Shown here one piece after another: positions 1 to 10,762 of a DNA stretch of 64,000 bases (its first letter is position 1; every line of letters starts with the position of its first letter). Below the pieces are notes generated by a model that had not been told where the DNA came from, made no database searches, and saw nothing but the letters and a program-made list of their open reading frames with translations. The stretch is from an uncultured Chiayiivirga sp. (GTDB taxonomy: Bacteria; Pseudomonadota; Gammaproteobacteria; Xanthomonadales; Xanthomonadaceae). Position numbers and translations under genes: made by a program. The DNA lies in contig CAKSZJ010000011.1 of NCBI GenBank assembly GCA_934525595.1, positions 1 to 64,000 of the forward strand. Direction: 5' to 3'.

Positions 1-76
1 GTCTTCTTCTTGCGTGGCATACATGCTCCTTGGCAGCATCATGGTATGCCTCTCACACAAAATTTCTGACACCCTC
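1..76. mobile_element. Probable terminal end of an insertion sequence (IS256/mutator-like)
   Basis: The stretch ending at 76 carries AAATTTCTGACACCCTC (60-76), which resembles the terminal inverted repeats of IS256-family (mutator-type) elements as I remember them. Immediately after it the sequence becomes clean methyltransferase coding sequence. Reading the methyltransferase frame backwards hits a TGA at 67-69, so the methyltransferase homology stops exactly at this boundary. The body of the element would lie to the left of the window. Only one end is visible, so family and transposase cannot be confirmed. An ancient rearrangement or an assembly junction would look the same. Confidence 0.45.
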
Positions 77-1536
77 ATCCGGGTGACTTGGTGCTCGACC
101 CCACCTGCGGCTCCGGCACCACCGCCTTCGTCGCCGAAAAGTGGGGCCGCCGCTGGATCACCTGCGACACTTCGCGCGTGGCCGTCACCCTGGCCAAGCA
201 GCGGTTGATGACCGCCAGCTACGACTACTACGAACTCAAGTACCCGCACGAAGGCCTGCGCGGCGGCTTCATCTACAGGACCGTGCCGCACGTCACCCTG
301 AAGTCGATCGCCAACAACCCGGACATCGACGACATCTTCGAGCGCATGCATCCGGCCATCGACCAGGCACTGGCCGCGCTCAATGCCGCGCTGAAATCCG
401 CAGGCGCGCCATTCAAGGTGTCCGAGGGCGGGCGCAAGGGCAAGACGCTCGACTTCGCCAAGGGCGGCGCGCTGCAGGAATGGGAGGTCCCTTTCGACTA
501 CCCGGCCGACTGGAAGACCGGCGCGCGCGACGCCTTTGACGCCTTTCACGCCGCCCGCCAGGCCATGCAGCGGAAGATGGACGAGTCCATCGCCGCCCAT
601 GCCGATCAGGAAACCCTGTTCGACCAGCCGGCCGTGTCGAAAGACAAGCTGCGCATCACCGGCCCGTTCACGGTGGAAGCGGTGCCTTTCCCCAGCGTGC
701 TGTCGCTGGAGGAAGGCGAACAGTCGCAGGAGGCCGACGCCAGCGTGGCCCGCTCGGGTGAATCCCTGCGGCAGCACAGCTGGCGCGACGAGCTGCTCAA
801 GACCGGTATCCGCGGAAAGGGTGGGCAGATGCTCAGGTTTGCCGAGCTGGAGACCCTGCCGGACACCCGGCATCTCCACTGCACCGGCCACCTCGACAGC
901 GGCGAGCGCGTGGTGGTCAGCTTCGGCCCCGAGCACGGCGCGCTGGAGCAGAAGCAGGTGGAGCTGGCCATGCGCGAGGCCGGCGACCTGTTCCCGCGCC
1001 CGAAGATGATCGTGTTCTGCGCCTTCACCTTCGATCCGGAAGCGGCCAAGGACATCGACGCCACCCGCGGCATCACCGCGCTCAAGGCACAGATGAATAC
1101 CGATCTGTTGACAGAAGACCTGAAGAAGGCGCGCAGCCACAACCAGAGCTTCTGGCTGATGGGCCAGCCGGACGTGGAACTGCGCCAGCGCAAGGACGGC
1201 ACCTACGAGGTGGAGGTCAACGGCTTCGACTACTTCGACACCGGCACCGGCGAGCTCAAGTCCGGCGGCAAGAAGAACATCGCCGCCTGGGCGCTGGACA
1301 CCGACTACGACGAGCGCAGCCTGTTCCCGCGCCAGGTGTTCTTTCCGATGGCCGGCGCCAAGGACGGCTGGAACAAGCTCAAGCGCGACATCAAAGCCGA
1401 GCTGGACGAGTCGCGGCTGGATAAGTTGCACGGCACTGTCTCACTTCCTTTTGAGATTGGAGAGGGCCGGAAGGTGGCTGTGAAGATCGTGGATGACCGG
1501 GGCATCGAGTCCCTGAAGGTCATCCAGGCAGATTGA
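70..1536 (+). pseudogene. Truncated type III-style DNA methyltransferase (mod), C-terminal part only
   Basis: The frame opens with HPGDLVLDPTCGSGTT, the S-adenosylmethionine-binding motif I of beta-class amino-methyltransferases, followed by about 465 residues typical of the C-terminal part of Mod subunits paired with large Res helicase-nucleases. In beta-class enzymes the catalytic DPPY-type motif IV lies before motif I. Here everything before motif I is missing: an in-frame TGA sits at 67-69 and unrelated DNA lies further left. The first usable start is TTG at 88. The fragment should therefore be unable to methylate DNA. It heads a tightly packed operon with the toxin, antitoxin, chaperone and res genes. 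The truncation is seen directly; its cause (IS insertion) is inferred. Confidence 0.75.
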
Positions 1537-1559
1537 CGGGGCGAGGACGACTAACCATA

Positions 1560-1898
1560 ATGGTCAGCCGAAAGGAGACGAAGACCAGTGCCGACTACTC
1601 CTTGCAGCGGGTCGCTGCCTTGGCATCGCGTTTGGCGGTGTCGTACGCATCCACTCGCATCGCGCTCGACATCGACAACCTGGGCTACGGGCGTGAAGAG
1701 GTCTGCGCGTGCCTGTGCGTGCTTCGGAACACGCATTTCAGCCACTCTGAGCGGTATCGGCCCAATGGCCCGTGGCACGACGTTTACAAGATCGACTGGG
1801 CACCGCAGGGCTCGGAGCCAGACGCCCTGTACGTGAAGTTCCGCATGGACGGTGACCTGCTGGTCATCGAACTCTGCTCATTCCATCGACATAGATGA
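1560..1898 (+). CDS. MqsR-family toxin (predicted mRNA interferase)
   Basis: Predicted 112-residue toxin of the MqsR family, whose characterised members are ribosome-independent RNases. The middle and C-terminal parts match the family pattern: LDIDNLGYGREEVCACL, then LRNTHFSHS, then WHDVY, and a final strand with Y-V-K-F and D-L-L-V-I-E. An upstream in-frame TTG at 1533 overlaps the mod stop. ATG 1560 gives the normal family length and is preferred. The stop overlaps the next gene's ATG in an ATGA junction, so toxin and antitoxin are translationally coupled, toxin first as in E. coli mqsRA. No catalytic assignment is made beyond family resemblance. Confidence 0.8.
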   Translation: MVSRKETKTSADYSLQRVAALASRLAVSYASTRIALDIDNLGYGREEVCACLCVLRNTHFSHSERYRPNGPWHDVYKIDWAPQGSEPDALYVKFRMDGDLLVIELCSFHRHR

Positions 1899-2449
1899 CC
1901 ATGACCAACCTGAAAACCTGCAATGAGTGCGGCGAGGGTCGCCTTCACCCGTCGACATGGGAAGCCGACTTCCGCCATTACGATGGAACGATCCACGTCA
2001 CCGGCCTGCAGTGCCATCGGTGTGATGCTTGCGACGCCGATCCGGTCTTCCCTGACCAGGTCGCGTTCAACGAGAAGCGGGTCGCTGATGCAAAGCGCAA
2101 GGAGACCGGCAGGCTAATGGGCCGGGAGGTGCGCGTGCTGCGCGAGCAGCTTGGGCTGACCCAGCAGCAGGCCGCCACGCTGTTTGGCGGGGGCGCCAAC
2201 GCGTTCTCGAAGTACGAGCGGGGTGACACCTTGCAGAGCGTGGCCATGGATCGCCTGATGAAGGCGGCGGCCTTCGTGCCTGGCGTGCTTGAGTTCCTGC
2301 AGATGGAAGTTGACTTCCATGCGGGCGGATCGCCTGGGGCCGTTGAAACCTACTGCGTGCGAACCAGTGTCGCGTTCCCGGCGAAGACGGCACATTCGCA
2401 TCTGCGGGTGGTGAGTGAAGCCCAGTGGACTGCGGCGGAGGCGGCATGA
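1895..2449 (+). CDS. MqsA-family antitoxin with long C-terminal extension
   Basis: A 184-residue antitoxin with the MqsA layout. An N-terminal zinc-binding region has CxxC at Cys9/Cys12 and a second cluster at Cys40/Cys43/Cys46. A Cro/CI-type helix-turn-helix follows at about residues 76-115 (REQLGLTQQQAATLFGGG, then NAFSKYERG), matching the E. coli MqsA core closely. The core ends near residue 136. E. coli MqsA ends near 131, so about 48 further residues are present here. In toxin-antitoxin-chaperone systems such a tail is the chaperone-addiction segment recognised by a SecB-like protein, and the next gene encodes exactly that. Likely autorepressor of the operon. ATGA overlaps occur at both ends. 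Confidence 0.85.
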   Translation: MTMTNLKTCNECGEGRLHPSTWEADFRHYDGTIHVTGLQCHRCDACDADPVFPDQVAFNEKRVADAKRKETGRLMGREVRVLREQLGLTQQQAATLFGGGANAFSKYERGDTLQSVAMDRLMKAAAFVPGVLEFLQMEVDFHAGGSPGAVETYCVRTSVAFPAKTAHSHLRVVSEAQWTAAEAA

Positions 2450-2904
2450 CTCCCGAAGAGAAGGACAGCCTGAAGGCCGTCGCCCCCAAGCTCAAGATTC
2501 TCGATGTGATCCTGGTCCGGAGCCAGTTCAACGCTCCAAGGGAGCCTGCGCCGGAGTCCACTCAAGCCTGGCAGCAGCACAAGCGGGGGGTTCAGTACGG
2601 AATCACGGAGCCTACGGAGGATGGCCACCAGGAGCTGCAGGTCAAGGTTGAGCTTGGCACTCGTGTGTTGATCTCCAACGACGCTGACGGACAGGACGGA
2701 GCCATCCAGTTCGAGATCGAGGCGGACTTTGTTGTCCGCTACCAGATGTCCGAACCGCTTGAGGAGGCAGCACTTGATGCCTTCTCCAACTTCAATTCAG
2801 TACACAACGTATGGCCCTTCTGGCGGCAGCACGTGTTCGACATCGTGCAGCGTGGGCGACTGCCGCACGTTGATGTCCCCCTGTTTGCCGGCACCAAGGC
2901 ATGA
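2446..2904 (+). CDS. SecB-like chaperone of a toxin-antitoxin-chaperone (TAC) module
   Basis: A 152-residue protein of SecB size (E. coli SecB is 155). The C-terminal half carries a SecB-like signature: FEIEADFVVRYQM, then ALDAFSNFNSVHNVWPFWR, then a hydrophobic segment ending RLPHVDVPLF, comparable to the SecB stretch leading to its GFPPL-type motif. It starts in an ATGA overlap with the antitoxin stop (an in-frame GTG at 2425 is less likely) and ends in an ATGA overlap with res. General SecB sits elsewhere in proteobacterial genomes, next to grxC/gpsA. A SecB-like gene directly after an MqsRA pair is the arrangement of TAC systems, where the chaperone folds and protects the antitoxin. Function is inferred from family and context. 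Confidence 0.78.
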   Translation: MTPEEKDSLKAVAPKLKILDVILVRSQFNAPREPAPESTQAWQQHKRGVQYGITEPTEDGHQELQVKVELGTRVLISNDADGQDGAIQFEIEADFVVRYQMSEPLEEAALDAFSNFNSVHNVWPFWRQHVFDIVQRGRLPHVDVPLFAGTKA

Positions 2905-5693
2905 CAGCGCCCAAGTCCCTGATCATCAACTCACCGTATGAGTCGCCGGGCAGATACTGGCAGCAGGGAGCCGGAACCGCGCTGAACCTGGTCGAAGGTC
3001 GCCGCCCTGCGGCCTATGAGGTCTTCGACACCCGCAACAACACCAAGCGGACGGAGGAGCTCAAGCTCGTCAACCGGATTCGTGAACGCGTGCAGGCGTG
3101 GCGGGACGCGGACTATCGCGGGGTCACCCAGGTCACCCGCAGCCTGCTGGAGCACTGGCGGGAGCGCGAGGCGCGCACCTTGCCGTTCTACTTCTGCCAG
3201 ATCGAGGCCATCGAAACGCTGGTCTGGTGGGTCGAGGCGACCGCTGAGTTCAAGCAAGGCATCTTCCTTGAAGGCGACGGCGGACCCTGGGAACGCGTCT
3301 GCAACAAGATGGCGACCGGCAGTGGCAAGACCATGGTGATGGCGATGCTCATCACCTGGCAGGTGCTGAACGCGCTGGCGTATCCCAAGCGCAACAAGGA
3401 TTTCTCGCAGGCGGTGTTCATTGTGGCGCCGGGTCTGACGGTGCGCGAGCGCCTGCAGGTACTGCTGCCGGGGAATCCCGGCAACGTCTACGACGAGTTC
3501 CATCTGTGCCCTTCCGAAGCGCTTCGGCAGAAGCTCAACCAGGCGCAGGTGCTGATCGAGAATTGGCACACGCTGATGCCGTTGAAGCAGGCGACGCGCT
3601 CGGTGGTGAAGAAGGGCGCGGAAAGCGACGAGGCGTTCACACGCCGCGTACTCGGCAAGCTGTCGGCGTACAAGGATATCGTCGTCATCAACGACGAGGC
3701 GCACCACGCCTACCGCAAGCCGGCCGATATCAAGATCAGCAAGAAGGACGCCGAAGAGCGCGGGATCGACCTGGACGAGGCGACACGCTGGATCGAAGGC
3801 CTGGACCGCCTGCACAAGACCCGGCGGATCATCCGCTGCTTCGACCTGTCGGCCACGCCCTTCGCACCGACCGGCAAGACCAACACCGATGAAGGACTGT
3901 TTGGCTGGATCGTCTCCGACTTCGGGCTCAACGACGCCATTGAAGGCGGGCTGGTCAAGACGCCGCGCGTAGTGGTGCGTGACAGCGCGCTGCCGAACGC
4001 CAGGCTGCGATCCAAGCTGTACCACCTCTACCGCGAGCCGGAGGTGTCGGAAGATCTCAACCGCAAGGCTGCCAAGCCGGAAGATCCGCTGCCCAAGCTG
4101 GTCCAGGACGCCTACACCCTGCTGGGCGCGGACTGGCGTGAAGCCGCCAACCAGTGGGCCGAGAACGGGCATACCTCCCCGCCGGTCATGCTGACGGTCT
4201 GCAATCGCACCGAGACCGCTGCGCGCATTGAGCGTTACTTCACCAGCGGTGATGCCTTCTGGCCGGAACTGCACGCGCCCGAGAAGACCCTGCGGGTCGA
4301 CTCCAAGGTGCTGGAGAAGGCGGAGATCGGCGAGGCGACAGGGGCCGACAAGGACTACGAGGCGCGCTTGAAGCAGATCGTGGAGGCGGCCGGACTGCCT
4401 TCAGACCGTGAAGAGGCGCTGCTTTCGCTGAAGAAGGAAGAGATCCTGCGGTCCATCGTGGACAACGTGGGCAAGCGCGGCACGGCCGGGCAGAAGCTGC
4501 AGAATGTCATCTCGGTGGCGATGCTGTCCGAAGGCTGGGACGCCAAGAACGTCACCCACATCATGGGCCTGCGCGCGTTCACCAGCCAGTTGCTGTGCGA
4601 ACAGGTAATCGGCCGCGGCCTGCGTCGCGTGAGCTACGAGACCGACGAGAATGGCCTGTTCCTTCCGGAGTACGTGAACGTCTTCGGTGTTCCCCTGTCG
4701 ATCTTCCAGGACGACGGTGAAGGCCCGCCGCCGCCGCCGCCGAAGCCGAGCACCCAGATCGAGTCCCTGCCCGAACGCAACAGCCTGGAGATCCGCTGGC
4801 CGAACGTGCTGCGCGTGGACCCGGTGGTGAGGCCGGTCTTGGCCGTCCGCTGGGACGAGGTCGAGGCACTGGTGCTCGAGCCGGAAGACACGCCGATTTC
4901 AGCGGAGATCGCACCGGCCCTGGGCGGTGCGACCGACTGGAGCAAGATCCATGTCATTGACCTGGAACTTCTTCCCGAGCAGTTCCGCCTGCAGCGCCTG
5001 ATCTTCGTCGCGGCGCGCAAGGCCTACGAACAGATGCAGGAGAAGTTCAGTGGTGGACGGGAGTACCTGGCCTACCAACTGATCCGCCTGGTCGAGGAGT
5101 TCATCGATTCGGACAAGCTCGTGATCCCGAGCCTGTTCCACCAGGAGCCCCTTCGCAGGCGGATCCTGATCACGCTCAACGTGAACCGGATCGTCGAGTA
5201 CCTCCTGCGCTACGTGTACGAGCAGAACACCGAGAGGGTGGAGCTGATCTTCGATGAAGACGCCCCGATCGGCTCAACCCGCTACATGCGAACCTGGTAC
5301 ACGACCAAACCCAACCTGCCGACCGTGCGATCGCAGATCAGTCACGTCGTGGGCGACAGCGCCTGGGAAGGCCATGCCGCCAACGTCTTCGAGACCTCGA
5401 ACAACGTGGTGAGCTACGTCAAGAACGACCACCTCGGCTTCCAGATCTACTACATGTGGAACGGATCGAGGCGGCGGTTCCTGCCGGACTTCCTGGTTCG
5501 ACTGAAGAACGGGAAGACGCTGGTGCTGGAGATCAAGGGCGTGGACGACGACCAGAACCGCGCCAAGCGGGCGGCACTGGCGACGTGGGTCCAGGGCGTG
5601 AACCAGAAGCGCGGGTTCGGCGTCTGGACGCATGCGGTTGCCTTCGAGCCGAGCGAAATCCACGATCTGCTGGCGCAGCACGCGAAGGCGTGA
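2901..5693 (+). CDS. Type III restriction enzyme Res subunit (helicase-nuclease)
   Basis: A 930-residue DEAD/DEAH-type ATP-dependent translocase-endonuclease. Walker A is ATGSGKT at about residues 138-144. The DEAH motif sits in INDEAHHAYR and motif III-like LSATPF follows. Motif VI is in EQVIGRGLRR. Near the C-terminus, PDFLVRLKNGKTLVLEIKG (about 862-880) fits a PD-(D/E)xK nuclease core. The reading frame is intact and all motifs are present. The start overlaps the chaperone stop. Type III Res needs its Mod partner to find sites and to protect host DNA. With mod truncated upstream, this Res is probably idle unless a Mod is supplied elsewhere. Confidence 0.88.
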   Translation: MTAPKSLIINSPYESPGRYWQQGAGTALNLVEGRRPAAYEVFDTRNNTKRTEELKLVNRIRERVQAWRDADYRGVTQVTRSLLEHWREREARTLPFYFCQIEAIETLVWWVEATAEFKQGIFLEGDGGPWERVCNKMATGSGKTMVMAMLITWQVLNALAYPKRNKDFSQAVFIVAPGLTVRERLQVLLPGNPGNVYDEFHLCPSEALRQKLNQAQVLIENWHTLMPLKQATRSVVKKGAESDEAFTRRVLGKLSAYKDIVVINDEAHHAYRKPADIKISKKDAEERGIDLDEATRWIEGLDRLHKTRRIIRCFDLSATPFAPTGKTNTDEGLFGWIVSDFGLNDAIEGGLVKTPRVVVRDSALPNARLRSKLYHLYREPEVSEDLNRKAAKPEDPLPKLVQDAYTLLGADWREAANQWAENGHTSPPVMLTVCNRTETAARIERYFTSGDAFWPELHAPEKTLRVDSKVLEKAEIGEATGADKDYEARLKQIVEAAGLPSDREEALLSLKKEEILRSIVDNVGKRGTAGQKLQNVISVAMLSEGWDAKNVTHIMGLRAFTSQLLCEQVIGRGLRRVSYETDENGLFLPEYVNVFGVPLSIFQDDGEGPPPPPPKPSTQIESLPERNSLEIRWPNVLRVDPVVRPVLAVRWDEVEALVLEPEDTPISAEIAPALGGATDWSKIHVIDLELLPEQFRLQRLIFVAARKAYEQMQEKFSGGREYLAYQLIRLVEEFIDSDKLVIPSLFHQEPLRRRILITLNVNRIVEYLLRYVYEQNTERVELIFDEDAPIGSTRYMRTWYTTKPNLPTVRSQISHVVGDSAWEGHAANVFETSNNVVSYVKNDHLGFQIYYMWNGSRRRFLPDFLVRLKNGKTLVLEIKGVDDDQNRAKRAALATWVQGVNQKRGFGVWTHAVAFEPSEIHDLLAQHAKA

Positions 5694-5723
5694 TCGCATC
5701 CGGAAAGTTCGCCCCTGAGATCG

Positions 5724-8700
5724 TTACGGCGCCACCGGCACCTCCTCCTTCACCCGGAACCATGCGGCGTAGAGCGCCGGCACCACCAGCAGGGTGAGGC
5801 CGGTGGCGGCGATGAGGCCGCCCATGATGGCCACGGCCATGGGGCCGAAGAAGGCGCTGCGCGAGAGCGGGATCATGGCGAGCACCGCCGCCAGCGCGGT
5901 CAGAACGATGGGGCGGAAGCGTCGCACGGTGGCGTCGACGACGGCCTGCCAGCGCGGGTGGCCGGCGGCGATGTCCTGCTCGATCTGGTCCACCAGGATC
6001 ACGGTGTTGCGCATGATCATGCCGGCCAGCGCGATGGTGCCGAGCATCGCCACGAAGCCGAACGGCACGCGGAACACCAGCAGGAAGGCGGTCACGCCGA
6101 TCAGGCCCAGCGGCGCGGTGAGGAACACCAGGAACGAGCGCGACAGGCTGCGCAGCTGGAGCATCAGCACGGTGAACACCACGGCGATGAACAGCGGGAT
6201 GCCGGCTTTCACCGAGTTGGCGCCGCGCGTCGAATCCTCCACGCTGCCGCCGGTTTCCAGGAGATATCCGGACGGCAGGCGCGCACGGATGTCTTCCAGC
6301 GTGGGCAGGATCTGTGCCACCACCGAGGCCGGCTGCTCGGCGCCGTAGATGTCGGCGCGCACCGTCACCGTGGGCAGGCGGTTGCGATGCCAGACGATGC
6401 CCTCCTCGAAGCCGTATTCCAGCGCGGCCACCTGCGACACCGGCACCGCGCGCCCGTTGGCGGTGGGCACGGCGAGCGAACCGAGCAGGGAGAGCTGCGC
6501 GCGCTCCTCTTCGGGGCCGCGCAGGAGGATCTGGATCAGCTCGTCGTCTTCGCGGTAGGTGCTGACCTCCAGCCCGGAGAGTGAACTTTGCAGGAAGCGC
6601 GCCAGATGCGCGGAGCTGACCCCGAGGGCGCGCGCGCGTTCCTGATCGATGACCAGGCGCACCACCTTGCTGGGTTCTTCCCAGTCGAGGTTGACGTTGC
6701 TGACGTGCGGGTTGCGGCGCACCCGTTCGGCCACGTCGCGCGCCAGCGTGCGGGCCGTGTCGATGTGCTCGCCAGAGATCCGGAACTGCACCGGATAGCC
6801 CACCGGCGGGCCGTTTTCCAGCCGCGTCACGCGTCCGCGCAGGGGGGTGAATTCGGTCGCGAGCGTGTCGATCAGGGCGCTTCGCACGATCTCGCGCTCT
6901 TTCACGCCCCGGGTCAGCACCACGAACTGCGCGAAGCTGGTCTGCGGCAGCTGCTGGTCCAGCGGCAGGTAGAAGCGCGGCGAGCCGGTGCCGACGTAGG
7001 CAACGTAGTTTTCCACCCCGTCCATCGCCTCCAGCCTGCGCTCCAGCCGTTCCACCTGCGCCTGGGTGGCCGGCAGCGAGGCGCCTTCGGCGAGCTTGAG
7101 ATCCACCAGCAGCTCGGGCCGCGTGGAGGACGGGAAGAACTGCTGCGGCACGTAGCGGAACAGTGCCATCGAGGCCAGGAGCAGGGCCAGCGTTCCGCCG
7201 AGCACCAGCCAGCGCCTGCGCATCGCGCCCTGCACCAGCGCGCGGAAGCGGCGGTAGAACGCGGTGTCGTAGGGATCGTGCGGTGTGCCCCGGGCGTGCC
7301 CGCCGGCGCGTGGTTCGGGCAGCAGCTTGTCGCCCAGATAGGGCACGAACACCACCGCCGCGACCCAGCTCAGCAGGAGCGCGATCGTCACCACCTGGAA
7401 GATCGAGCGGGTGTATTCGCCGGTGGCCGAGGCGGCCGTGGCGATGGGCAGGAAGCCGGCCGCGGTGATGAGCGTGCCGGTGAGCATCGGGAAGGCGGTG
7501 CTGCTCCAGGCGAAGCTCGCTGCGCGCAGGCGGTCGTAACCCTGCTCCATCTTCACCGCCATCATCTCGATGGCGATGATGGCGTCGTCCACCAGGAGGC
7601 CCAGCGCCAGCACCAGCGCGCCCAGCGAGGTCTTGTGCAGACCGATGCCGAAGAAGTGCATGGCGCCGAAGGTCATCGCCAGTACCAGCGGGATGGACAG
7701 TGCCACGACCAGCCCGGTGCGCAGCCCCAGCGAGAAGAAGCACACCAGCAGCACGATCGCCACCGCTTCGGCCAGCACCCGCACGAATTCGCCGACCGAG
7801 TCGCGCACCGCGGCCGGCTGGTCGGACACCTTGCGCAGCTGCATGCCGACCGGCAGGGTCTGCTGCAGGCGCGCCAGTTCGGCGTCGAGCGATGTGCCCA
7901 GCCTGAGGATGTCGCCGCCTTCGCGCATCGAAACCGCCAGCCCGATGGCGTCTTCGCCCATGAAGCGCATCTTCGGCGCCGGCGGATCGGAAAACCCGCG
8001 CCACACCCGCGCCACGTCGTCGAGCCGGAAGCTGCGGTCCGCCACGCGGATCGGGAAGGCGGCGATGTCCTCGACCCGCTCGAAGCGCCCGGAGACGCGC
8101 AGCTGCACGCGCTCGTCGGGGGTTTCGAAGAAGCCTGCCGGAAGGATGGCGTTCTGTTCGTCGAGCGCGCGCTGGATGGCGTCGAGCGGAATGCCCAGGG
8201 TGGCGAGCTTGGTGTTCGACAGCTCGATCCAGATCTTTTCCGCCTGCAGCCCGATCAGCTCGACCTTGGCCACGTCGGGCACGCGCTGCAGCTCGATCTC
8301 GAGGCGGTCGGCGTAGTCCTTGAGCACGGCGTAGTCGAAGCCGTCGCCGGTGAGGGCGTAGATGTTGCCGAAGGTGTCGCCGAACTCGTCGTTGAAGAAC
8401 GGCCCGATCACGCCGGCGGGCAGGGTGGCGCGGATGTCGCCGGCTTTCTTGCGCACCTGGTACCAGAGCTCGGGCAGCTCGCGCGAGGTCATGGAATCCT
8501 TCGCCATGAAGATCACCTGCGATTCGCCCGGCCGCGAATAGGCGCGGATGGATTCGTAGCGCCCGGTTTCCATCAGCTTGCGCTCGATCCGGTCGGTGAC
8601 CTGGCGGCTGACCTCCTCGGCGGTGGCGCCGGGCCACATCGTGCGCACCACCATGGCGCGGAAGCTGAAGGGCGGATCCTCGCTCTGTCCGAGCTTGCCG

Positions 8701-8801
8701 TAGGAGATCGCGCCGATCACGCCGAACAGGAGGATGGCGTAGAGCACCAGCGAGCGGTGCCGCAGTGCCCAGGCGGAAAGGTTGAAGCCGCCGGTGTCCA
8801 T
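5724..8801 (-). CDS. RND efflux transporter, inner-membrane pump (HAE1/AcrB-like)
   Basis: A 1025-residue resistance-nodulation-division pump, the inner-membrane, proton-driven component of a tripartite efflux system. It starts with a first transmembrane helix (SLVLYAILLFGVIGAISYG), then the porter segment beginning GQSEDPPFSFRAMVVRTMWPG. Two large periplasmic loops and the twelve-helix pattern can be followed. The central helix GALVLALGLLVDDAIIAIEM carries the paired aspartates used for proton transfer. The start shares one base with the stop of the upstream adaptor gene (TGATG). Sequence style is closest to MexK/TriC-type pumps. The substrate is unknown. No outer-membrane factor gene is present in the operon, so it probably borrows a TolC-like channel. 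Confidence 0.93.
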   Translation of the reverse strand: MDTGGFNLSAWALRHRSLVLYAILLFGVIGAISYGKLGQSEDPPFSFRAMVVRTMWPGATAEEVSRQVTDRIERKLMETGRYESIRAYSRPGESQVIFMAKDSMTSRELPELWYQVRKKAGDIRATLPAGVIGPFFNDEFGDTFGNIYALTGDGFDYAVLKDYADRLEIELQRVPDVAKVELIGLQAEKIWIELSNTKLATLGIPLDAIQRALDEQNAILPAGFFETPDERVQLRVSGRFERVEDIAAFPIRVADRSFRLDDVARVWRGFSDPPAPKMRFMGEDAIGLAVSMREGGDILRLGTSLDAELARLQQTLPVGMQLRKVSDQPAAVRDSVGEFVRVLAEAVAIVLLVCFFSLGLRTGLVVALSIPLVLAMTFGAMHFFGIGLHKTSLGALVLALGLLVDDAIIAIEMMAVKMEQGYDRLRAASFAWSSTAFPMLTGTLITAAGFLPIATAASATGEYTRSIFQVVTIALLLSWVAAVVFVPYLGDKLLPEPRAGGHARGTPHDPYDTAFYRRFRALVQGAMRRRWLVLGGTLALLLASMALFRYVPQQFFPSSTRPELLVDLKLAEGASLPATQAQVERLERRLEAMDGVENYVAYVGTGSPRFYLPLDQQLPQTSFAQFVVLTRGVKEREIVRSALIDTLATEFTPLRGRVTRLENGPPVGYPVQFRISGEHIDTARTLARDVAERVRRNPHVSNVNLDWEEPSKVVRLVIDQERARALGVSSAHLARFLQSSLSGLEVSTYREDDELIQILLRGPEEERAQLSLLGSLAVPTANGRAVPVSQVAALEYGFEEGIVWHRNRLPTVTVRADIYGAEQPASVVAQILPTLEDIRARLPSGYLLETGGSVEDSTRGANSVKAGIPLFIAVVFTVLMLQLRSLSRSFLVFLTAPLGLIGVTAFLLVFRVPFGFVAMLGTIALAGMIMRNTVILVDQIEQDIAAGHPRWQAVVDATVRRFRPIVLTALAAVLAMIPLSRSAFFGPMAVAIMGGLIAATGLTLLVVPALYAAWFRVKEEVPVAP

Positions 8802-9907
8802 CAGCGCGCTGCCGCGAGGTCGATCGGGCGGTTGTCGCGGTCGATCGGCTTCAGCGCCTCGCCCTCGCGGATCAGGTGCGTGCCGCCGCTCACCACCCAG
8901 TCGCTCGCGGAAAGGCCGTCCGCGATGATCGCCTCGCGCTCGCTCCAGGCGGCGACGGTGACGGCGCGGCGCGCGGCGCGCGCGCTGGCCGGATCGAGCA
9001 CCCAGACGAACGCGTTGCCCGTCTCGCCGCCAACCGCGGACAACGGAACCGACAGGCGTGCCGCATCGCCTTCGGCGAGATAGACGCGCGCGCTCTGGCC
9101 CAGGTCCACGGTCACCGCGTCCGGCACCCGGAAGGCAATCCTGGCGGCGAAGGTGCGCGCCTGCGGATCGGCCGTTGGCGCCAGTTCGCGCACCGTGCCC
9201 GGCCAGCGTTCGCCGCTGCGCGACCACAGCTCCACCAGCACCGCCGTGCCCACCGCAAGCTGCCTCACCCGGGCCTCGGGCACGCCGATGACCACATCGC
9301 GCACGCCGTCCACCGCCAGAGTGAATACCGCCTGCCCGGCCGAGACGACCTGGCCGGCCTCGGCCTGACGCGCGGCGATCACCCCGTCCGCAGGAGCACG
9401 CAGGCGCGCGTAGTCGCGCTGGTTGCGCGTCACCGCCAGCTGCGCGCGGGCGCGTTCGGCCTGCGCCTGTGCGGCTGCGAAGGAGGCCTGCCTGGCATCG
9501 AACACCGACGGGCTGACCAGGCGCCTTGCGAGCATTTCGGCGTAGCGCTCGCGCTCGGCCCGGGCCAGCGCCAGCTCGGCCTCCGCGGCAGCGAGCTGGG
9601 CGTGCGCAGCCTCGGCCTGGAGGTCGAGATCCTGCGGGTCCAGTTCGGCCAGCACGTCGCCCTTGCGCACCCGGACGCCGGTTCCCGCCAGGCGCCGGGC
9701 GATCTTGCCGCCGACGCGGAACGACAGCGCCGGCTCTTCGCGCGCGCGTACCTCGCCGGAAAAGACCTGCAGCGCGGTCGCGGCCGGCTGCGGCTGCACC
9801 ACGATTGCAGGCCGCGGCGGCGCCTCGACCGGCCCGTCCGCGCCGCAGCCGGACAGGACCAGTGCCACCAGCGCCAGGCCGGAGAGGAAACGCGCGTGCG
9901 CCGCCAT
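8801..9907 (-). CDS. RND efflux periplasmic adaptor lipoprotein (membrane fusion protein)
   Basis: A 368-residue adaptor linking the RND pump to an outer-membrane channel. The chosen ATG gives a lipoprotein signal peptide ending in the lipobox LSGC at about residue 20. A longer reading frame exists upstream but would bury this signal. The order is typical: beta-barrel/lipoyl strands (VFSGEVRAREEPALSFRVGG, then VRVRKGDVLAELDPQDLD), an alpha-helical hairpin rich in Ala, Glu and Arg, the second lipoyl half (YARLRAPADGVIAARQ), then the beta-barrel and membrane-proximal domains. It is co-transcribed with the pump and divergent from a TetR gene, which probably controls both. Confidence 0.92.
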   Translation of the reverse strand: MAAHARFLSGLALVALVLSGCGADGPVEAPPRPAIVVQPQPAATALQVFSGEVRAREEPALSFRVGGKIARRLAGTGVRVRKGDVLAELDPQDLDLQAEAAHAQLAAAEAELALARAERERYAEMLARRLVSPSVFDARQASFAAAQAQAERARAQLAVTRNQRDYARLRAPADGVIAARQAEAGQVVSAGQAVFTLAVDGVRDVVIGVPEARVRQLAVGTAVLVELWSRSGERWPGTVRELAPTADPQARTFAARIAFRVPDAVTVDLGQSARVYLAEGDAARLSVPLSAVGGETGNAFVWVLDPASARAARRAVTVAAWSEREAIIADGLSASDWVVSGGTHLIREGEALKPIDRDNRPIDLAAAR

Positions 9908-9986: not shown

Positions 9987-10631
9987 ATGCCCAGCGCCCT
10001 TTCTCCCCGCCGTCGCGCCGGACCCGGACGACCCAAGAGCGTCCAGAAGCGTCAGGCGATCCTGCAGGCCGCGCAGCGGCTTTTCCTCGCCTGCGGCTTC
10101 GAGGGCACCAGCGTGGAGCAGATTGCCGCCGAGGCCGGGGTATCCAAGCTCACCGTCTACAGCCACTTCACCGACAAGGAAGCGCTGTTCTTCGCGGCGG
10201 TGGAAGAGCGCTGCCGCGAGCAGCTGCCCGACGCGCTGTTCGCCACCGCGCTGGCCGGCCCGATCCGCGATCGGCTGCTGGACATCGGGCTGCGCTTCCA
10301 CACGCTGCTGGCGAGCGAGGACGCGGTGGCGCTGCACCGCATGCTGATGCGCGATCCGCGCACCGTGGAGCGTCTCGGCGAGCTGCTCTGGAACGCCGGG
10401 CCGGCGCGCATCCTGGCCAGTCTGGAAGCCTTCCTGAAGACCGCCGTGGCGCGCGGCGAGCTGGAGATCGACGACGTGGGCGAAGCCGCGCGGCAGTTTC
10501 TCTGGATGCTCAAGGGCGACATCAACCTGCGCATGCTCTGCGGCCCGGCCGGCTGCAGCCACGGCGGCGACGGGCGTGCGCACGTCGCCTCGGTGGTCAC
10601 GATGTTCCTGCGCGCCTACGGCGTGCGCTGA
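9987..10631 (+). CDS. TetR/AcrR-family transcriptional regulator
   Basis: A 214-residue repressor. The N-terminal DNA-binding domain is standard: KRQAILQAAQRLFLACGFEGTSVEQIAAEAGVS then KLTVYSHFTDKEALFFA, at about residues 20-68, with the helix-turn-helix in EQIAAEAGVSKLTVYSHF. The C-terminal ligand domain is TetR_C-like (HRMLMRDPRTVERLGELLW). It is transcribed away from an RND adaptor-pump operon with only 79 bp between starts, the usual layout for a local repressor of efflux that is released by a pump substrate. The ligand is unknown. Confidence 0.92.
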   Translation: MPSALSPRRRAGPGRPKSVQKRQAILQAAQRLFLACGFEGTSVEQIAAEAGVSKLTVYSHFTDKEALFFAAVEERCREQLPDALFATALAGPIRDRLLDIGLRFHTLLASEDAVALHRMLMRDPRTVERLGELLWNAGPARILASLEAFLKTAVARGELEIDDVGEAARQFLWMLKGDINLRMLCGPAGCSHGGDGRAHVASVVTMFLRAYGVR

Positions 10632-10762
10632 GCCTTCTCCGCCACGAAGCCCCGGGCCGCACGGCCGCCGCACGCCGCGCGACCATGCGATAATGCACGA
10701 CCTTTTGCCCGCGCCGCGACACGGTGGCGTGGCGTTCTAAATTCACGACACGGGGTTCTGCG

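Follow-up and report, generated by a model that had tools for sequence, protein, structure and literature searches.

An MqsRAC-type toxin-antitoxin-chaperone cassette in a variable mod-res slot of a type III-like restriction-modification family

The window, the whole 64,000-nucleotide stretch of DNA analysed, carries a toxin-antitoxin-chaperone (TAC) module between the 3' part of a DNA methyltransferase gene (mod) and a full-length restriction gene (res) (Table 1). The gene facing res is an ordinary AcrB-type efflux pump gene (5724-9227, - strand), and a tRNA scan of the whole window found none.

Table 1. Features at the mod-res junction of the window
Feature	Position	Strand	Basis or remark
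ISEc58-like IS256-family sequence, inferred element end, probably breaking mod	1..76	.	100% identity over 76 bp to records annotated ISEc58 family transposase
mod 3' part, type III-like DNA methyltransferase, C-terminal ~485 residues, DPPY motif absent	79..1536	+	PDLC03632 MTase_III
Promoter-like TTGACG-17-CATAAT	1533..1561	+	-35 overlaps mod stop; -10 inside palindrome
Palindrome TAACCATAATGGTCA, candidate MqsA operator, overlaps mqsR start	1552..1566	+	Kept in 13/13 loci with detected mqsR
mqsR-like toxin gene, 112 aa	1560..1898	+	PF15723
mqsA-like antitoxin gene, 184 aa, CxxC/CxxC zinc finger and HTH	1895..2449	+	PF15731, TIGR03830, AF2 model vs 3gn5
Antitoxin C-terminal tail, residues 134-184, ChAD-like	2294..2446	+	Beyond TIGR03830 match; relatives also tailed
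SecB-like chaperone gene, 152 aa	2446..2904	+	SecB fold
res, BPTD_3080 family restriction subunit, 930 aa, full length	2901..5693	+	NF046055, 1154 bits

The Res protein has GSGKT, DEAH, QVIGRGLRR and PDF..LEIKG motifs, which we take to mark a helicase and a nuclease-like part. Since type III Res models score weakly (51 bits or less for REase_III models and only 16 bits for the type III model PRK15483), we use the safe wording 'type III-like'. The Mod part matches positions 490-981 of the 983 positions of PDLC03632 MTase_III with 250 bits in a profile search. The sequence-only reading had the TAC preceded by mod; a mod 3' part does lie upstream, but the gene is not whole and appears to be broken by IS256 sequence. 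Homology to mod begins at 79-91, and the window Mod corresponds to residues 593-1077 of the 1077-residue Mod of locus L003 (95% identity); the missing part was sought elsewhere in the window and was not found there. The first 76 bases are identical to ISEc58-like IS256 copies on enterobacterial plasmids and abut mod at its DPTCGSG region, and the contig seems to end inside an IS256-family element. Since only the 3' part of mod stands behind ISEc58-like IS256 sequence, the methylase is probably broken in the window. The TAC genes and res stay full length though mod is broken.

All three overlapping genes of the TAC proved real. The toxin was correctly recognized as MqsR-like, as it passes the curated cut-off of PF15723 in a profile search (35.9 bits; cut-off 26.2), and this family is matched by all 11 members of our MqsR alignment (set A3). 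Lys56, Tyr81 and Lys96 are described as residues linked to E. coli MqsR activity (PMC2791442). In the alignment, Tyr81 corresponds to window Tyr91 and is kept in 11 of 11 sequences, Lys56 corresponds to window His62 (His in 10 of 11 TAC-linked toxins), and Lys96 falls outside the aligned part. Because Lys56 aligns with His62, toxin activity is not assured. TAC-linked MqsR proteins also have an invariant SFH near the C-terminus (11/11; residues 107-109 in the window), and this motif, with the His at the Lys56 position, suggests that they perhaps have a different active site.

The antitoxin is MqsA-like with extra C-terminal residues, as had been claimed: zinc finger and HTH are present and the tail has about 50 residues. 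We found C9, C12, C43 and C46 invariant over 31 aligned sequences, together with an HTH match; the zinc role of these MqsA cysteines is described in PMC2791442. The AF2 model matches MqsA (3gn5, E 8.3e-8), the TIGR03830 match ends at residue 133 of the 184, and the tail has a pLDDT of 49-63 from about residue 151. For the 152-residue protein, structure and profile part ways: its fold agrees with SecB, with the M. tuberculosis TAC chaperone 5mtw as best structural match, but PF02556 gives 16.8 bits, below the Pfam gathering score of 26. Hence, we call the chaperone SecB-like.

A SecB-like gene adjoining a toxin-antitoxin pair and an antitoxin extended beyond its classical family are features of the TAC class, and the window has both. 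The layout had been compared to HigBA-SecB; it is that of a TAC, but its closest precedent is MqsRA-SecB itself, not only HigBA-SecB. Hence, the three genes are a further member of the known MqsRAC-type TAC kind. Chance or mis-annotation is ruled out by recurrence in five other loci and by the SecB fold. Phage records gave a single match, from one Klebsiella phage, at 26% identity. A 301-aa protein (P0232) is annotated with both the MqsR and the MqsA Pfam domains and is apparently a toxin-antitoxin fusion.

We surveyed the start of mqsR in 17 loci (the window, 15 loci found through SecB, and L076), in 13 of which mqsR was detected. All 13 have the palindrome TAACCATAATGGTTA there with at most 2 differences, the window copy differing by one change; it lies 8 bases before the mqsR ATG in 11 of 13 and further upstream in L012 and L014. 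With at most 1 mismatch, the palindrome occurs at one place per genome in 9 of 9 whole genomes, always at the mqsR start, and a reversed control pattern matches in 3 of these 9. Within the window alone, a looser operator pattern gives 2 matches versus 0.43 expected, which is weak evidence (8 of 100 shuffles reach 2). The palindrome resembles the E. coli MqsA site given in PMC4894380, AACCT(N)3AGGTT, both being of the AACC..GGTT type, and is a candidate MqsA operator.

The middle of the palindrome holds CATAAT, and a -35-like hexamer 16-18 bases from it has a mean match of 4.31/6 over the 13 loci, which are related and not independent; 33 other spacings taken as control have a mean of 2.32 and a largest value of 2.85. 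In a sigma-70 scan, limited to that promoter type, the promoter-like TTGACG of the window was found once against a shuffle mean of 0.2. Another spacing gives a better -35 fit in L004, L005, L012 and L014. Judged by hexamer spacing, transcription would start just after the mqsR ATG, which is unexplained; no conserved downstream mqsR start codon fitting the predicted promoter was found. Antitoxin control at the mqsR start is thus plausible, with the exact promoter left ambiguous. The sequence-only reading placed restriction, toxin and chaperone on one transcript, which stays a conjecture: the conserved operator and the promoter-like sequence suggest that mqsR has its own promoter, separate from mod, and mod is broken.

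The setting had been considered unusual, and it is, but it is not singular: the mod-TAC-res order recurs in five other loci, and this junction takes many cargoes besides the TAC. The proposed coupling of secB to res is supported by a 4-bp overlap in five slot loci, among them the window; at the remaining one, L007, the overlap is with a 5' fragment of res. Genome searches sampled 397, 369, 195 and 398 genomes, in partly overlapping samples. The SecB-based scan, run with one exact peptide pattern (WPFWRQH), is no census; of its 15 loci, four have the TAC between mod and res (L001, a Lysobacteraceae MAG; L003, Lysobacter spongiae; L006 and L007, Thiocystis). A Res-based search added the sixth TAC slot locus, L076.

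We examined 38 loci with a Res 46-100% identical to that of the window, after excluding Res fragments of G544 and G932 and more distant Res matches, and 34 had a readable junction (in L130 and L132 no mod was found on the stretch available, L143 misses the res N-terminus and L146 is broken). Six of the 34 junctions hold a TAC (window included), 14 hold other cargo, 13 are empty (10 bp or less) and one, a 383 bp gap without an ORF of 60 aa (L134), is unclear; the related plasmids L097, L098, L099 and L145 are not independent in this count, and mod is damaged at some of the empty junctions (L098, L100, L140). The 29 Res-found loci, a subset that leaves out the window and the SecB-found L001, L003, L006 and L007, give 1 TAC, 14 other cargo, 1 unclear and 13 empty. 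Since only 1 of these 29 junctions has a TAC, the pairing of TAC and R-M is recurrent, not obligatory. Hence, the mod-res junction of the BPTD_3080-type R-M family is a cargo slot with alternative cargoes.

The other cargoes are BrnT/BrnA with PIN_3 (L125), VapB with a partial PIN (L133), a nucleotidyltransferase with HepT, then DUF4258/DUF2283 (L139), a nucleotidyltransferase with a DUF3782-like protein that scores below cut-off (L141), AAA_15/AAA_21 ATPases with a further gene (L077, L101, L127, L129, L131, L136, L137) or with a DUF4276-like gene below cut-off (L128, L138), and SLFN_AlbA_2 (L078, also in L131). The three ATPases submitted to PADLOC match HEC-01A (L128), PD-T4-4_A (L136) and PDC-M56A (L077). 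By their domains, non-TAC cargoes with a Pfam match appear to be mostly of toxin-antitoxin or defence type, a claim that is incomplete because 5 of the 33 slot cargo proteins scanned, mostly ATPase partners, have no match and some matches are below cut-off; the scan left out, for example, L131 9017-9670, L141 6724-6981 and the second ORF of L137. A more distant R-M locus that is not among the 34 (L094, 33% Res) carries a GmrSD_N protein at its junction. In L130, res is immediately preceded by Multiubiquitin, Prok-E2 and ThiF/JAB genes (2754-5704, - strand), and L088 has a frame-shifted SecB-like remnant (10552-10643) upstream of a distant (31%) BPTD_3080 res.

Mod and Res of the window share 95.2% and 95.9% identity with those of L003, whereas MqsR, MqsA and SecB share only 65%, 52% and 45%. 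Of the four-fold degenerate sites, 135 of 695 differ in mod and res taken together, and 75 of 116 differ within the TAC (p 8e-22 by Fisher test); between L003 and L076 these sites show no such contrast (p 0.50). Window-L003 DNA identity drops at about 1470-1590 and is back up at about 2970-3030. The R-M tree joins the window with L003 (100/99), whereas the TAC tree joins the window with L001 (100/100) and L003 with L076 (100/99); the AU test rejects window plus L003 for the TAC (p 2.7e-5) and window plus L001 for R-M (p 0.0086). Hence, strict vertical co-inheritance of TAC and R-M is ruled out by the identity contrast and the conflicting trees. A single clade of all slot TACs was likewise rejected (AU p 4e-61), with groups named after seeing the data and with L012 and L014 on long branches. 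The L006 and L007 TACs group with that of L005, a locus that has no Mod or Res of the BPTD_3080-type family by tblastn.

Two junctions carry fusion scars. The one in L007 joins roughly the 90 N-terminal residues of Res to the final 12 of Mod, and it separates the TAC from a second cargo (ParE, HTH, DUF2281). In L131, a res start runs into a second copy of the mod 3' part between two cargoes, and the mod 3' copies are 99.6% identical over 1234 bp; the stretch 2470-7720, two cargo sets parted by this res5'-mod3' fusion ORF, looks like the product of recent tandem stacking. L139 has only a remnant of the res 5' end, with no piece of mod. From the res-mod fusion scars, we infer that recombination within the conserved 3' end of mod and 5' end of res swaps cassettes or stacks them.

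Taken together, we think it probable that the TAC is an exchangeable MqsRAC-type abortive-infection cassette in a variable mod-res slot, and that res may come under antitoxin control. The SecB-like protein would fold the antitoxin via its tail, and MqsA and SecB together would neutralise MqsR and repress at the palindrome. Upon infection, a phage protein would capture SecB, MqsA would be lost, and MqsR would cut mRNA; the freed toxin would abort infection by phages that escape restriction. New cassettes would arrive by recombination in the conserved gene ends. Given its overlap with secB, res may be expressed from the promoter under antitoxin control as well. The defence function of the window TAC is drawn by analogy: MqsRAC of E. 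coli C496_10 is reported to protect against phage T2, with extra chaperone inhibiting protection (PMC9519451), and in CmdTAC, a phage capsid protein is reported to take the chaperone and so free the toxin (PMC11618068).

A bolder version, which we regard as doubtful, is that the mod-res junction is a general docking slot swapping abortive-infection cassettes, with the MqsRAC promoter governing res, so that chaperone capture would both free the toxin and derepress Res. If true, a two-stage defence (toxin and Res) would be wired through one chaperone.

It is unlikely, in our view, that the TAC mainly stabilises the R-M locus with phage sensing secondary, the toxin being freed because operon loss removes the labile antitoxin and chaperone. 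Such addiction would account for a TAC placed inside the operon, where secB runs into res, or into a fragment of it, at all 6 slot loci, and for TAC and res still being full length in the window despite the broken mod; yet 13 of the 34 junctions, including some on conjugative plasmids, are empty. We also know of no addictive role for much of the other slot cargo (AAA ATPases, AlbA_2), which we count against addiction. We give an equally low chance to the junction being a recombination hotspot that gathers any small gene with no joint function. The mosaic history, the tandem scars and the diversity of the cargo, some of it without any Pfam match, speak for such passengers, but the matched cargo is mostly of toxin-antitoxin or defence type, incomplete as that count is with 5 of 33 unmatched. 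Least of all do we expect the R-M complex to restrain toxin or antitoxin until phage anti-restriction releases it, for which the PrrC-PrrI precedent and logic provide a model (PMC3506569, PMC3710099, as excerpted): the TAC brings its own antitoxin and chaperone, its relatives occur at loci without Mod or Res of the BPTD_3080-type family by tblastn (L005, L008, L010 and others), and TAC and R-M trees disagree, which argues against tight co-evolution.

The slot is a naturally varied set, empty or filled with TAC, BrnTA, VapB-PIN, nucleotidyltransferase-HepT or AAA ATPases on a similar R-M scaffold, so back-up, stabilisation and passenger roles are directly testable. What is new is a TAC in an exchangeable slot of a type III-like R-M system with its own candidate operator ahead of res. 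Among the literature matches listed, no title or abstract opening described a TAC or cargo slot between mod and res; a preprint on embedded defences may anticipate it. Already known, judging from excerpts of the papers cited here, are MqsRA-SecB TACs and defence genes, toxin-antitoxin included, embedded in type I R-M operons.

Our own survey also places TACs near type I systems. In L009 (113-9003), the TAC lies inside a type I R-M locus (hsdM part, hsdS, TAC, mrr), directly behind the specificity gene and before mrr, with a HamB-like helicase further on; in L004 it has a JetC gene on one side and type I hsdR/hsdS on the other, with further genes intervening, and in L002 it is near a JetC gene. 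Complete toxin-antitoxin and TAC modules, antitoxin included, thus recur inside R-M operons.

Among known systems, MqsRAC of E. coli C496_10 and MqsRA-SecB of V. cholerae RC385 are described with MqsR, a tailed MqsA and a SecB-like chaperone, as in the window; the likeness is by description, not by sequence, and the window TAC differs in lying between mod and res. MqsRA-SecB TACs, including that of RC385, are reported to be chaperone-controlled (PMC5105189). HigBA1-SecB (Rv1955-1957) has a SecB fold in common with the window chaperone, 5mtw being the best match, but its toxin and antitoxin are of the HigB/HigA family, unlike MqsR/MqsA. PrrC within PrrI (hsd) is an RNase toxin tied to an R-M operon, as the window toxin would be; in the excerpted sources it has no dedicated antitoxin or chaperone and is restrained by the R-M proteins (PMC3506569, PMC3710099). 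TgvAB, in the type I R-M locus of V. cholerae VPI-2, likewise places defence genes within an R-M operon but is described as type IV restriction, not toxin-antitoxin (PMC11411939). In the RptR island of EPEC, DarTG2 lies between hsdS and hsdR, a toxin-antitoxin pair that, like the window TAC, is embedded in an R-M operon where a hotspot of recombination has been proposed; unlike the window, the R-M system is type I, the excerpted account has no chaperone, and the regulator RptR stands at the operon head (PMC12255303).
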